From: Nitrospinia bacterium
GTDB lineage: Bacteria > Nitrospinota > Nitrospinia > Nitrospinales > JAJDAT01
Assembly: GCA_029261715.1 (NCBI GenBank)
Contig: JAJDAT010000030.1
Coordinates: forward strand, 62,001 to 126,000
Length of the DNA: 64,000 bases
Reading direction: 5' to 3'
The translations under genes were made by a program, and so were the position numbers. The stretch's first letter is position 1, and every line of letters starts with the position of its first letter. The notes under the pieces were generated by a model. It was given only the letters and a program-made list of their open reading frames with translations. It ran no database searches and was not told the DNA's origin. Shown here in pieces: positions 21,125 through 25,727 of this stretch.

Positions 21125-22042
21125 TCATCCACTTATTCGATCCAACCATTGGTGATATTCTGAAAACTCTGAAAACTTAACAACACCTGGGACATTGGCA
21201 GGAGCGCCTTCTCCCCCAACAACTATAAAAACTCGGTCGCTTAAGCAATTTCTTAATTGACGGAGATAAATCTCTGCATTTACCGCATCAAAGCAATTAG
21301 AAACGCTAATACCAAGTAACTTAGCCTGACACTCTTCAAGAACTGAGGCAATACCCTCGCAAGAATTATTTGATCCAAGAAAAACAATTCCATTATCGCT
21401 TAAAGCTGTCACAACAGCGCACATCTGAAGTCCTAACTTATGAGTTTCGCCAGGAATGTTGGCCAAAACAACGTTTGTGTTCTTTTTCTTTTCGTTTAAT
21501 TTCTTCCATTTTTCAGACAAAAAAGCTCCTAATAACTCCGACGCAAAGTGCTCTTGAGATATAGTTAATTCTTGAGACCTCCAAGCAACCCCTACTTTTT
21601 TTACAAAAGGAACTGCATAATCGGTAATAAAATGGATTGGATCATGCGCATCCCATTCATGCCGAAGCCCTTCGCTCAATGATTCTTCGTCGTAAAGGAG
21701 AGCCGCTTCCAACCAATTTGAAATGGTCAGGTCAATTTCTGAAAAATCCTTTTCTGTTCCACCATCTTCTATACTGCATGAGTGTATAATAAAGTCTAAC
21801 TCTCTAAGCGTTCTACCCACGACTTTACTTGGCTTATGCCCCGACTCTAAAGCTCTATTTATAGCTTGTAATCGGTCAACTTCGACTCTGCGATATCGAC
21901 GGTGATTGGAAGGAAGCCTGATAGATGCTGGAGCCCCATAGCGCTTTTCCCAAACCCTCAAGGTATGAGTTCCGATTCCTGTTAGTTTTGATAATTCTCC
22001 AATTGTGACGAAATCTTCACTACTTTCGCTATTAAAAATCAT
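21125..22042 (-). CDS. MerR-type regulator with cobalamin-binding domain (CarH/LitR-like)
   Basis: A 305-residue transcription regulator. Residues ~10-80 form a MerR winged helix (VTIGELSKLTGIGTHTLRVW, KRYG, NHRRYRR). The C-terminal part is a B12-binding module with both signature motifs of light-sensing CarH/LitR proteins: W154-x9-EH (164-165) and E199-x-H201-x-x-G204. In characterised CarH, adenosylcobalamin promotes a DNA-binding tetramer that light disrupts, releasing repression. AAGGAG sits 6 nt before the ATG. It is the last gene of a minus-strand series that starts below the photolyase, so it probably controls that locus. Whether it uses B12 and light needs biochemical proof. Confidence 0.88.
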   Translation of the reverse strand: MIFNSESSEDFVTIGELSKLTGIGTHTLRVWEKRYGAPASIRLPSNHRRYRRVEVDRLQAINRALESGHKPSKVVGRTLRELDFIIHSCSIEDGGTEKDFSEIDLTISNWLEAALLYDEESLSEGLRHEWDAHDPIHFITDYAVPFVKKVGVAWRSQELTISQEHFASELLGAFLSEKWKKLNEKKKNTNVVLANIPGETHKLGLQMCAVVTALSDNGIVFLGSNNSCEGIASVLEECQAKLLGISVSNCFDAVNAEIYLRQLRNCLSDRVFIVVGGEGAPANVPGVVKFSEFSEYHQWLDRISG

Positions 22043-22214: not shown

Positions 22215-22916
22215 TTATTCAAAAAAAATAGAGCTTGCAAATTCGTTTGGCAACGCTGCAACTTTAGTCGGTTCGACAATTTTCATTATTTGAATTCCAC
22301 CAGTAGTCAATTTACCCATTAACCGAGAATGAAGAGCCGAGCTTATGAAAGTCATTCCAACTCGAATCCCATAATGTTCCAATTCGGCTCGATCAAACTT
22401 TGACAATCCAACTAATCCTTTTAAATTTCCAGATTTAATTTTATCTTCCATTCGCTTTTGGATCTTTTCAGAAAACATCCATTCGTAAGGGTAATGAGAA
22501 TGATCATGGCCAGCGTGAGATTTAGTAGTCATTGATGTGCGAGCCACCTGGAAATTTTTATCTACAGGAAGAGAACGAGAGTTAAAGGCTCGTTCCGCTT
22601 TCATCTGTTTAACAATCTTGATTCCTGAAGTGGTTTTTTGAAATCGAAATAATTTATTATCAATCTTAGCGTCAAAAGTTCTTCCCTCTTTCACTCCATA
22701 TTGATCCATGATTTTATTTTCAAAGCGTGAAAGACCAAAAGATTTTACCTGAGAATATTTTTTCAACTGTGCATTAATATTGGCTTTGGTTTCGTTTGTG
22801 AACTCCCACTTAATACCAGTATAAGAGTGGTCATGTTCTGAATGGGCCAATGCGACCGAAGCTCCTACCAATAAACCTGCTACTATCAATGCGGATGCTA
22901 AAATTGTTTTTTTCAT
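22215..22916 (-). CDS. Secreted two-module histidine-rich protein (copy A)
   Basis: Unrecognised 233-residue exported protein. After a signal peptide (cleaved after VALA) come two copies of a ~80-residue module, at about residues 25-105 and 137-215. Each opens with a histidine motif (HSEHDHS, HAGHDHS), then a W-x-F-[TS] motif (KWEFT, EWMFS), a GLS motif, Y-G-x-[RV]-x-G-x-TF, and a [TL]-T-[ST]-G-I end. The gene 23258-23944 encodes a paralogue with the same two-module plan. The HxxHDH start suggests metal binding, an inference. AAAGGGA precedes the start. No known family comes to mind. Confidence 0.75.
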   Translation of the reverse strand: MKKTILASALIVAGLLVGASVALAHSEHDHSYTGIKWEFTNETKANINAQLKKYSQVKSFGLSRFENKIMDQYGVKEGRTFDAKIDNKLFRFQKTTSGIKIVKQMKAERAFNSRSLPVDKNFQVARTSMTTKSHAGHDHSHYPYEWMFSEKIQKRMEDKIKSGNLKGLVGLSKFDRAELEHYGIRVGMTFISSALHSRLMGKLTTGGIQIMKIVEPTKVAALPNEFASSIFFE

Positions 22917-22969
22917 TTTTCGATCCCTTTTATAAAAAGTTATTTAGGATGTTTTAATTTCTAGAACTA

Positions 22970-23182
22970 TTAATAATTAAAATTTAAAGATGAATCATAG
23001 AGATGCGGATACATTTCTTTAAGTTTTTTATAAATACTGGTTTTACCCATCTTCTTTGACGCCACTGTCGATTTATCATCTTCTTCATAAATCTTTTTCC
23101 AAAAATCTTTACTTAGTTCCAAGCTGCTAACTTTGCTTTTCAACTTCCCTTTTGCATCCGAAACTCTGACTTCGTAAAACAT
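22970..23182 (-). CDS. Small basic hypothetical protein (70 aa)
   Basis: A short lysine-rich, signal-less protein lying between the two module proteins, in the same orientation. Two ATGs are available; the second (23182) is preferred because AAGGAG is 7 nt upstream of it and only 1 nt upstream of the first (23188). The sequence shows alternating charged helices (KKLKEMYPHLY at the end) and no motif I know. The gaps of 53 and 75 nt to its neighbours suggest co-transcription. It could be a cytoplasmic partner or regulator of the locus; there is no direct evidence. Confidence 0.6.
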   Translation of the reverse strand: MFYEVRVSDAKGKLKSKVSSLELSKDFWKKIYEEDDKSTVASKKMGKTSIYKKLKEMYPHLYDSSLNFNY

Positions 23183-23257
23183 TTTCATTCTCCTTTTTAT
23201 CTAAAAATATTCGTTGTTAAGTTTTGTTTCAAAAGAGCAATTACCATGCTCTAGAAA

Positions 23258-23944
23258 TCACATAGCCTCTTCTTGAGTCATTGAAGCAACTTGAACGCCT
23301 TTTCCTTCTTCAACAAACAAACCGCCAGAAGTCTTTTTAATATTCAATTGCTTTCCCGCTACTCGCGCATTAAAAGTATTTCCAACTTTGATGTCATACT
23401 TTTTCAGCATTTTTCTTTCATGGGAACTCAAACCAACAACGATTGGAAATTTTCCGGAGACAACTTTTTCAGAAATCTTTGATTGAGTTTTTTTGGAAAA
23501 AACCCATTGATAAGGAAGAGCCGTATGGTCATGACCTTGGTGATGATGACGCATAGATACTTTTTTTATTTCCATAGTCTTTTGAACTGGGATTTGAGGA
23601 ACTGCGGTATTACTAAATCTGTGAACTTCTTTAATCAAGATCCCTGAAGAGGTGCGTTGAAGCGTAATAGTTTTTCCATTTACTTGAGCAAGAAAGCTGT
23701 TACCAACATCCACGTTATAATCGTCGAAAAACTTTTGCTCTAACCGAGAGGTTCCAATGGCAGAAACGTCATGCCTGTTTACTTTCAAAATATTTTCGAT
23801 TTTTGCTTTGGTTTCTTTCGTAAATTCCCATTTCATTGGGAGCTTAGAAAAGTCATGCCCAGAATGGGCAAATGAACTTGTAGAAGTTAGAGCAATTAAA
23901 GAACCGATAGCGATAACTTTTGAAATGATGTTGGCTTTTTTCAT
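23258..23944 (-). CDS. Secreted two-module histidine-rich protein (copy B)
   Basis: Paralogue of the protein at 22215-22916, with a signal peptide ending SSFA and two copies of the same module. Module starts are HSGHDFS...KWEFT and HQGHDHT...QWVFS; the cores contain GTS/GLS, Y-[ND]-[VI]-x-VGN-[ST]-F and TS-[SG]-G-[IL]. An insert of histidines (MRHHHQGHDH) precedes the second module. AGGGG lies 9 nt before the ATG. It is the first gene below the TAGACA repeat region, so it is the most likely direct target of whatever binds there. Function unknown; presumably periplasmic or secreted and metal-binding. Confidence 0.75.
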   Translation of the reverse strand: MKKANIISKVIAIGSLIALTSTSSFAHSGHDFSKLPMKWEFTKETKAKIENILKVNRHDVSAIGTSRLEQKFFDDYNVDVGNSFLAQVNGKTITLQRTSSGILIKEVHRFSNTAVPQIPVQKTMEIKKVSMRHHHQGHDHTALPYQWVFSKKTQSKISEKVVSGKFPIVVGLSSHERKMLKKYDIKVGNTFNARVAGKQLNIKKTSGGLFVEEGKGVQVASMTQEEAM

Positions 23945-24293
23945 CGTATGACCCCTAAAAAATAGTTAGACAAATCGTTAAATACCTAGACATAGTGTTA
24001 ACTTATTCCTAGACATTGTCAACTATTTTGTCGAATTATTTTTCATTAATTCTAGTTTTTTCCTCAAATTACTGAAAAATAATGCTTAATAACTAGACAA
24101 AAATAAAAATATCTAGAGAGATACTCAGGACATATAGACAAAAAAAAGGAAAGCTCGTCTTTTTAGGAAAAATAAGATCGATTTAGAGACGATTTGAAGA
24201 AGACTTTCTATTTCTAAAAGAACTGTCTCAAAATAATGGGAATTCAAAAATAATAGGTAGGAAGTGCCGCAGTTTGCTCTTGTATGTCAACTT
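23945..24293. other. 349-bp intergenic region with the repeat cluster
   Basis: Very AT-rich spacer between copy B of the module proteins and photolyase (both minus strand). Apart from the TAGACA repeats and the Shine-Dalgarno of copy B, I see no ORF, RNA gene or convincing terminator hairpin for photolyase. The promoter of the downstream genes must lie here. Confidence 0.6.
23967..24140. promoter_or_regulatory. Five TAGACA direct repeats, probable operator
   Basis: TAGACA occurs at 23967, 23987, 24010, 24094 and 24135, all in the same orientation, within 174 bp. The first three are 20 and 23 bp apart (about two helical turns) and the third is followed by TTGTCA, giving a partial dyad. By chance a given hexamer is expected about once per 2 kb on either strand. 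The cluster lies 23-196 nt upstream of the first module-protein gene and downstream of photolyase. Multiple same-direction sites spaced by helical turns are what CarH-type tetramers use, so an operator is inferred. Confidence 0.6.
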
Positions 24294-25727
24294 TCAAGCT
24301 GGACTTTGAATTTTAGCTTTTTTATACATATTCAAAGCCATTCTTCTTTGTACCGCATGGTCTACAATAGGAAACGGGTAATCTTTTCCCAAAACACAAT
24401 CAGCCTTACATTGTTCCGTTTGCTTTGCCATTATTGGCCAATGAATATACTTTTTTGAAAATCCACTCAATTCTGGAATTTCGTTTTTTATAAACTCACC
24501 TTCAGGGTCAAATCTTTTTGACTGAGCAATGGGATTAAAGATTCTAAAATAAGGTTGCGCGTCGCATCCCGTTGAGGAGGCCCATTGCCACCCTCCGTTA
24601 TTTGCCGCCAAATCAAAATCTAATAAGTTTTGAGCAAACCAAGCTTCTCCTTTTCTCCAATCAATTAACAAGTCTTTGGTTAAAAAAGAAGCCACAACCA
24701 TCCTCAAACGATTATGCATCCAACCAGTCTTTTTAAAATGCCGCATAGCGGCATCAATTAAAGGATATCCAGTCATTCCATCTTTCCATAATTGAAAATG
24801 CTTTGTTTTCCCTTCCCATTGAATGCCATCATACTCTGGCTTAAAATTCCCAATAACTATATGAGGAAAACAATCAAGAATGGTTTGGTAAAAATCGCGC
24901 CAGATTAATTCCGACAACCATGTTTTGTAGCCTTTAGAATTATTCTTCATCGCAAAACGCACCAAAGCTCTTACAGAAATAGTTCCAAAACGTAAATGAA
25001 TGGATAGCCCCGACGTTCCATTTACTCTTGCTGGATAATCACGATTTGTATCGTATTCCTCGATATACCTTTTAAAAGAATTCAAACGTGACCTGGCTCC
25101 TTTTTCTCCAGGCTGAATATTTGGAAAATTTTGCTTAAAGCCTATTTTTTCTAAGCTCCAATCCCATAGATGCTTTTTGCAAACTTCTTTAGGAGCTAAT
25201 CGGTCCAGCTTGCAAGAAAAATCAGAGTAGCTTTCTTCGCATAACTCTTTTAGCCAAGCATTTTTGTATGGAGTAAATACTCTAAAGGAAGTCCCTTGCT
25301 GAGTTAATACTTCTGGATGCTCGAAAACGACATGGTCTTTATAAGAATTAAAATCAACTCCTATAGATCTCATCTTTTTTAAAACTCGATCATCCCTATC
25401 TTTTGCGCTTGGCTCGTAATCTCTATTTATAAAAACAGCATTAACTTTTAATTCTTTAACAATTTTAAAAACCTCTTTTACTGGATCTCCATACCGTATT
25501 ATTAAGGATGAGTGTTTAGATTTAATAGACTTTTCGAGCTCTCTCAAACAATTCGCAATAAAAGAAACTCTACGGTCGTCTTTATCTTTCAACTTATTCA
25601 GTATATTCGTATCAAAAATGAAAAAGAGGAATACCCTCTCTGACTGTCGAATGGCATGCGACAATGCCACATGATCAGAAAGACGAAGATCTCTTCTAAA
25701 CCAACATAGGGATTGTTTATATTTCAT
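24294..25727 (-). CDS. phrB: Deoxyribodipyrimidine photolyase / cryptochrome family
   Basis: FAD-dependent, blue-light-driven repair enzyme for UV cyclobutane pyrimidine dimers. The N-terminal antenna domain starts LCWFRRDLRLSDHVAL. The FAD-binding C-terminal domain has GTSGLSIHLRFG, LSELIWRDFYQ, GWMHNRLRMVVASFLTK and the invariant NNGGWQWASSTGCDAQPYFR. The electron-transfer tryptophan region WRKGEAWF and the full length of 477 suggest an active class I-type enzyme rather than a pure cryptochrome. AGGAT lies about 6 nt before the ATG. Neighbouring CarH-like regulator fits the light-induced photolyase operons known in other bacteria. Confidence 0.95.
   Translation of the reverse strand: MKYKQSLCWFRRDLRLSDHVALSHAIRQSERVFLFFIFDTNILNKLKDKDDRRVSFIANCLRELEKSIKSKHSSLIIRYGDPVKEVFKIVKELKVNAVFINRDYEPSAKDRDDRVLKKMRSIGVDFNSYKDHVVFEHPEVLTQQGTSFRVFTPYKNAWLKELCEESYSDFSCKLDRLAPKEVCKKHLWDWSLEKIGFKQNFPNIQPGEKGARSRLNSFKRYIEEYDTNRDYPARVNGTSGLSIHLRFGTISVRALVRFAMKNNSKGYKTWLSELIWRDFYQTILDCFPHIVIGNFKPEYDGIQWEGKTKHFQLWKDGMTGYPLIDAAMRHFKKTGWMHNRLRMVVASFLTKDLLIDWRKGEAWFAQNLLDFDLAANNGGWQWASSTGCDAQPYFRIFNPIAQSKRFDPEGEFIKNEIPELSGFSKKYIHWPIMAKQTEQCKADCVLGKDYPFPIVDHAVQRRMALNMYKKAKIQSPA

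Follow-up and report, generated by a model that had tools for sequence, protein, structure and literature searches.

A two-module, putatively exported protein family, apparently undescribed and so far seen in Nitrospinales, in the neighbourhood of a CarH-type B12-dependent regulator

CarH/LitR regulons, as outlined in those parts of PMC9304148 that deal with them, depend on a B12-dependent regulator composed of a MerR domain and a B12-binding domain, whose operators are 11-base tandem repeats of the half-site TnnACA overlapping the promoter. Light-response genes lie near the regulator and the target in the described cases is carotenoid synthesis. According to the same parts of PMC9304148, CarH proteins carry three signatures, namely the recognition helix RxWE[KR]RY, the motif Wx9EH, which contacts the adenosyl group, and the lower-ligand motif D/ExHxxG. 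The window, i.e., the whole stretch of 64,000 nucleotides that was analysed here, displays a comparable arrangement, with a regulator of the same domain composition, TnnACA-type repeats as a candidate operator and a photolyase as the nearby light-response gene. Instead of carotenoid synthesis, however, the conserved first gene encodes an undescribed exported two-domain protein, and the half-sites are also found inverted and do not follow each other in an 11-base tandem. The domain family appears to be undescribed, and the CarH-type regulator with its candidate operators is of a known kind. The features of the locus are the following:

21125 to 22042, minus strand: repressor of the CarH type with MerR and B12-binding domains, following gene A after a gap of 172 bases
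22215 to 22916, minus strand: gene A, 233 aa, signal peptide and two modules (family profile matching residues 24-106 and 133-215)
22272 to 22520, minus strand: module A2 (HAGHDHS...), from the alignment
22599 to 22847, minus strand: module A1 (HSEHDHS...), from the alignment
22970 to 23188, minus strand: small ORF of 72 aa between genes A and B
23258 to 23944, minus strand: gene B, 228 aa, signal peptide and two modules; first gene past the repeat-rich upstream region
23297 to 23545, minus strand: module B2 (HQGHDHT...), from the alignment; the module folded singly in structure prediction
23621 to 23869, minus strand: module B1 (HSGHDFS...), from the alignment
23967 to 24140, minus strand: candidate operator for CarH, consisting of five TGTCTA repeats ahead of gene B (read on the plus strand as TAGACA, at 23967, 23987, 24010, 24094 and 24135)
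24294 to 25727, minus strand: DNA photolyase, upstream of gene B (PF03441 8.6e-86, PF00875 2.2e-43)

The original prediction had proposed two neighbouring genes, each encoding a signal peptide and two modules, and both were recovered as minus-strand open reading frames with the coordinates listed above. Both proteins start with a hydrophobic, signal-peptide-like stretch ending in A-L-A or S-F-A and followed by a histidine; here as elsewhere, signal peptides were assigned by eye, without a trained predictor. The modules are about 83 residues long, and the motifs that had been ascribed to them were all found in each of the four, i.e., the opening H-x-[GE]-HD-[HF]-[ST] (HSEHDHS, HAGHDHS, HSGHDFS, HQGHDHT), W-x-F-[TS] (WEFT, WMFS, WEFT, WVFS), G-[LT]-S (GLS, GLS, GTS, GLS), Y-x-[IV]-x-x-G-x-[ST]-F (YGVKEGRTF, YGIRVGMTF, YNVDVGNSF, YDIKVGNTF) and the terminal [ST]-[SG]-G-[IL] (TSGI, TGGI, SSGI, SGGL). 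The alignment of the four modules has 12 invariant columns out of 84, and the six pairwise local alignments scored from 101 to 170 against a shuffled maximum of 49 (500 shuffles per pair, z from 15.8 to 31.1). Identity reaches 45% between the first modules of genes A and B, 28% between modules 1 and 2 of gene A, and 38% between the two genes over their length.

Profile searches in Pfam, NCBIfam, PHROGs and PADLOC returned no convincing match, and the family profile matched none of the sequences of solved structures, in agreement with the proposal that the module was undescribed. The best E-value obtained with these curated families was 0.00068, this and the weaker matches concerning few members and unrelated families, and the Pfam matches of the window's family proteins all stayed below the family cut-offs. 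The candidate identities SoxB (0.00068), Cas12f (0.00092), ArgoL2 (0.0014), PKD_4 (0.0031), Trm56 (0.0047) and DUF6488 (0.064) were scattered over members and were rejected as chance. The family is carried by 27 of the 77 genomes of the phylum Nitrospinota, and by the same number of genomes among 100 relatives and among a wider set of 387 genomes that includes the 77. The carriers are confined to the order of the window (27 of its 64 genomes, own genome counted), the family being absent from the 13 other genomes of the phylum and from the 310 genomes beyond it; so far, it is seen in Nitrospinales only. Because the best match per carrier genome ranged from 1e-69 to 1e-98 against a search threshold of 0.001, the family is sharply delimited at this level of sensitivity. 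Among named genomes, a scan retrieved 17 loci, each bearing a title that designates it as a MAG of Nitrospinota, Nitrospinae, Nitrospinaceae or Nitrospina; an earlier scan of named genomes with gene A as query found no relative. The genome of the window contains two family matches, which are genes A and B only. The "four copies" of the original prediction are too low a figure for the family, since the two-module layout was found in all 37 copies, distributed over 35 loci (34 fetched stretches and the window) in 27 genomes. In a tree of the 74 modules, 69 were split into first and second position; it was left unused because its support was only 0.24.

The original prediction had overlooked the neighbouring operon genes and the regulation of the family. 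The regulator of the window was matched by the Pfam families MerR_1 (2.1e-12) and B12-binding_2 (1.9e-7), whereas B12-binding (4.2e-6) remained below its cut-off. Its best NCBIfam match was the CarH equivalog NF052513 (3.1e-30), and as the 105 bits obtained are under the cut-off of 400, the protein is designated CarH-type and not as the equivalog. A CarH-type gene was found in 31 of the 35 loci, always downstream and on the same strand, with a nearest gap of 6 to 620 bases. Among these 31 proteins, RxWE[KR]RY is present in 30 (RVWEKRYG in the window; L027 has RMWERRHG), Wx9EH in 29, window included (one has the changed form WANGELAVGQGH and one is truncated), and D/ExHxxG in 25 (ETHKLG in the window), with Tyr or Gln instead of His in five and a truncation in one. 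In the five substituted proteins (L033, L035, L042, L043 and L052, out of 30 full-length ones), the lower-ligand His is replaced by Tyr in four cases and by Gln in one while Wx9EH is intact, which would possibly correspond to altered cofactor use or light sensing.

With a threshold of at most 1e-30, the CarH-type regulator was detected in 33 of the 77 phylum genomes; family and regulator occurred together in 25 genomes, the family alone in 2, the regulator alone in 8 and neither in 42. This co-occurrence gives Fisher p values of 3e-11 for the 77 genomes and 8e-9 within the order, kinship being ignored in both. A count of B12-binding_2 in six genomes was left out of the comparison, the sample being too small. 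Thus, 25 of the 27 family-bearing genomes possess the regulator, and because the two others (G029 and G044) are 72% and 84% complete, its absence there is tentative and may be due to an assembly gap.

Upstream of gene B, five TGTCTA repeats spaced 20, 23, 84 and 41 bases apart occur within 174 bases, whereas 200 shuffled windows contained at most 3 per 250 bases. Their complement, TAGACA, conforms to the CarH half-site TnnACA. No TGTCTA repeats of this kind precede gene A, which probably rides on the gene B transcript or on an unrecognised promoter. When the 300 bases upstream of the 37 copies were considered together, TGTCTA was counted 40 times against a mean of 3.4 in mononucleotide shuffles, and TAGACA 27 times against 3.6. 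In the relatives, the TAGACA repeats overlap the -35/-10 region and their spacing differs from that of the 11-base tandem. The composite pattern TTGACA-N12-14-[TA]GTCTA lies upstream of 23 of the 37 copies, and its 23 occurrences on both strands of the 34 fetched loci are all upstream of family copies. A stricter version was searched in 20 whole genomes picked from the 27 family carriers and yielded 25 matches, 18 of them before family genes as judged by position, one before the second carH gene in G022 and six elsewhere, compared with 2 for the reversed control. As these genomes are all carriers and the promoters searched are those from which the pattern had been derived, this result is a measure of specificity for the family and not an independent discovery. 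Neither gene A nor gene B matches the strict pattern, and the genome of the window has no match at all. Together with the position of the regulator gene, these sequence patterns make regulation of the family by the CarH-type repressor well supported on comparative grounds, and expression of the family is probably switched on by sunlight. Besides, one of the six matches found elsewhere (L155, G002 contig 1, position 2907269) stands before the gene of a 117-aa exported-looking protein beginning MKTTTRKSILSL, a possible further target of the promoter pattern.

The photolyase upstream of gene B is consistent with a light-response neighbourhood. The 72-aa ORF located between genes A and B is related to small ORFs found just downstream of CarH in three other genomes (L047, L048 and L056); a weaker relationship links it to a DUF2256-like ORF, rich in cysteine, of ten further loci (z from 11.5 to 12.0 against cluster 33 and from 3.1 to 7.0 against cluster 5). 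Recurrent neighbours of the family include a protein of the CbiX family, a DUF1731-containing epimerase, a DUF4149 protein, an NmrA-type protein, a peroxiredoxin, a 2-thiouracil-desulfurase-family protein, presumably DUF523-like, and a lipocalin-like protein, the latter recognised by eye. Cluster 31 had been taken for a photolyase because of its length, an assignment that was rejected since its sequence resembles, by eye, a sigma-54-type regulator. Small exported-looking proteins were also observed beside or near the family and CarH, in cluster 15 (L029, L030, L043, L045, L050 and L090) and in cluster 28 (L031, L040 and L044); a Pfam search with one of them gave no match. In the window's own genome, another contig (C20; L094, 282-2889) carries a second CarH-type gene, next to which lie two more genes of the light cluster and a CbiX-like gene that is divergent, so that the light cluster of this genome seems to be split over two contigs. 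At L099 (7077-9053), a gene for a CobW/ZigA-type GTPase comes directly after that of a CarH-type paralogue, which may possibly constitute a further link of light sensing to metal handling.

The chelatase-like gene of the CbiX family (cluster 2; Pfam CbiX 2e-12), present in 16 of the 35 loci and often near CarH, raises the question of whether the light-induced exported protein could bind a tetrapyrrole or corrinoid such as heme, porphyrin or free cobalamin, its tails providing axial ligands, and so quench or carry a photosensitising pigment. CarH being itself a corrinoid sensor, such a function would suit the neighbourhood. However, around the regulator of seven of the eight regulator-only genomes, which were fetched, several have a CbiX-like or epimerase gene beside the CarH-type gene; as these genes adjoin CarH where the family is absent, they track the regulator and not the family. 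Furthermore, no known heme motif was recognised in the family, and we consider pigment binding quite unlikely.

The model of module B2, obtained with 36 alignment rows, had a mean pLDDT of 82.0 and a pTM of 0.68, with the order strand, helix, strand, helix and three strands; that of full-length protein B (18 rows) reached 64.7 and 0.40, its linker (residues 112-146) being of low confidence (below 50). Foldseek found nothing at an E-value of 0.001 or better (best 0.53), and the best E-value in a viral structure library was only 0.12. The top VIA-align match was the N-terminal domain of RsmE, both for the module (Z 6.5, 62 residues, 2.1 A) and for the full-length model (Z 6.2, 64 residues, 2.1 A, residues 35-110). 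The lower rows 3iuw, 1zce, 6ihg, 1i2d and 6k6u are taken by us to be the same PUA-like superfold, and none of the remaining folds clearly outranked RsmE; rows of the PilT type (Z about 4.5) fitted module 2 of the full-length model and were not trusted. RsmE is a cytoplasmic methyltransferase that acts on rRNA. The predicted model shares the strand and helix order of its N-terminal PUA-like domain (PF20260, PUA_4), whereas profile similarity is absent and the family is predicted to be exported. Homology at the profile level was rejected, the score being 12.7 over 9 columns when shuffled columns reached 14.3 (RsmE profile of 26 sequences, 26 of 30 extracted), and with Z values under 8 the resemblance may be just a common arrangement. 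According to the model, the module would be a compact alpha/beta domain, weakly PUA-like, with the His motif as a flexible tail. One may then suppose that the folded pair does the work by binding a nucleotide, another small ligand or a partner in the envelope, with the tails as accessories. The RsmE match in both models and the retention of the domain core in two variants devoid of tails (see below) would agree with this reading; given the low Z values, the Foldseek result and an RsmE profile score within its shuffled controls, we regard it as unlikely.

In the first module, the tail A-H-S-x-H-D-H-S is conserved at its successive positions in 34 (A), 33 (H), 33 (S), 33 (H), 34 (D), 31 (H) and 34 (S) of the 37 copies; the tail of the second module retains H in 35, G in 34, H in 35, D in 28 and H in 35. 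Two residues of the domain itself, W14 and Y50, are invariant in the 74 modules. The original prediction had suggested looking in a predicted structure for a site built by the HxxHD motif together with the tryptophan. A single folded site of this kind is not supported by the model, in which the first ten residues of the module, i.e., the His tail, have a mean pLDDT of only 58 and the Trp is part of strand 1. The conservation of a His motif in such a low-confidence stretch suggests a function other than packing. A histidine directly follows the expected small-x-small signal peptidase site in 33 of the 37 copies (among the four exceptions, L058 has two extra residues inserted behind the His), and the mature protein is expected from its sequence to start with His after cleavage (A-x-A|H-S-x-H-D-H-S). 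The mature proteins contain at most one Cys and 7 to 13 His, the latter falling to 2 and 4 in L057 and L059. These two, from G029 and G044, respectively, keep the domain and have lost both His tails, L057 resembling a lipoprotein by eye (LAGC); in L055, the His residues of the first tail are also gone. Since two genomes keep the domain without the His motif, the fold does not depend on metal binding. L057 and L059 are the only variants lacking both tails, their upstream regions have no promoter repeats, and they belong to both of the family-bearing genomes in which no CarH was detected. This joint absence, in two cases from incomplete genomes, suggests that the function of the tails belongs to the light response.

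CopC, LPMO and ZinT are exported proteins with His-first or His-rich N-termini. Like these proteins, as they are usually described, the mature chain of the family is expected to begin with His and carries a His/Asp-rich tail; unlike them, it has no sequence match in Pfam or NCBIfam. The conserved His and Asp of the tails, the near absence of Cys and their location in a stretch that folding apparently does not require would favour binding of transition metals on the outer side of the membrane, which, given the tail conservation and the expected N-terminal position in the mature chain, is plausible. Alternatively, the protein could belong to the light response as an envelope component with a structural or adhesive role and without ligand, its tails providing surface charge. 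The two-module layout and the long low-confidence linker would accommodate such a role, but tail His and Asp are kept in 28 to 35 of the 37 copies per column, beyond what composition would demand, and this makes it very unlikely.

The explanation that we prefer, and to which we would give about an even chance, is that of a light-induced exported protein binding a transition metal through its His tails under CarH-type control. Comparison establishes the family, its architecture, the conserved linkage to CarH and the promoter pattern; light induction, export, metal binding and a protective role are what we infer. In the dark, the CarH-type repressor with adenosylcobalamin would occupy the TnnACA repeats overlapping the promoter and keep the gene off. 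Light would break the cofactor, leading CarH to release the DNA, and the exported protein would be made along with the other products of the light operon. Upon export to the periplasm or to the surface, cleavage of the signal peptide would expose the first His as residue 1, a second tail (H-x-G-H-D-H) preceding the second domain. Both tails would bind copper, zinc, nickel or cobalt ions, and the two compact domains would display the tails or anchor them to a partner. The protein may in this way hold metal ions outside the membrane, the metal being buffered or sequestered there while light raises oxidative damage.

Some of the organisms concerned oxidise nitrite, and they are mostly marine. A broader proposal, which we find rather doubtful, is that a duplicated, His-tailed PUA-like fold, relocated to the exterior of the cell, would serve light-switched periplasmic metal handling as the principal target of the B12 photoreceptor, shielding periplasmic metalloenzymes, e.g., those of nitrite oxidation, from sunlight. 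No publication on Nitrospina with CarH or LitR was found in a search of mostly openly accessible literature. As documented in PMC9239080, nitrification is subject to photoinhibition, which has a bearing on the distribution of nitrifiers in the water column. If marine Nitrospinota use a B12 light switch whose target is clear and nearly exclusive, this would offer a testable molecular handle on the light response, and the family would join the unassigned exported proteins as an added domain family.
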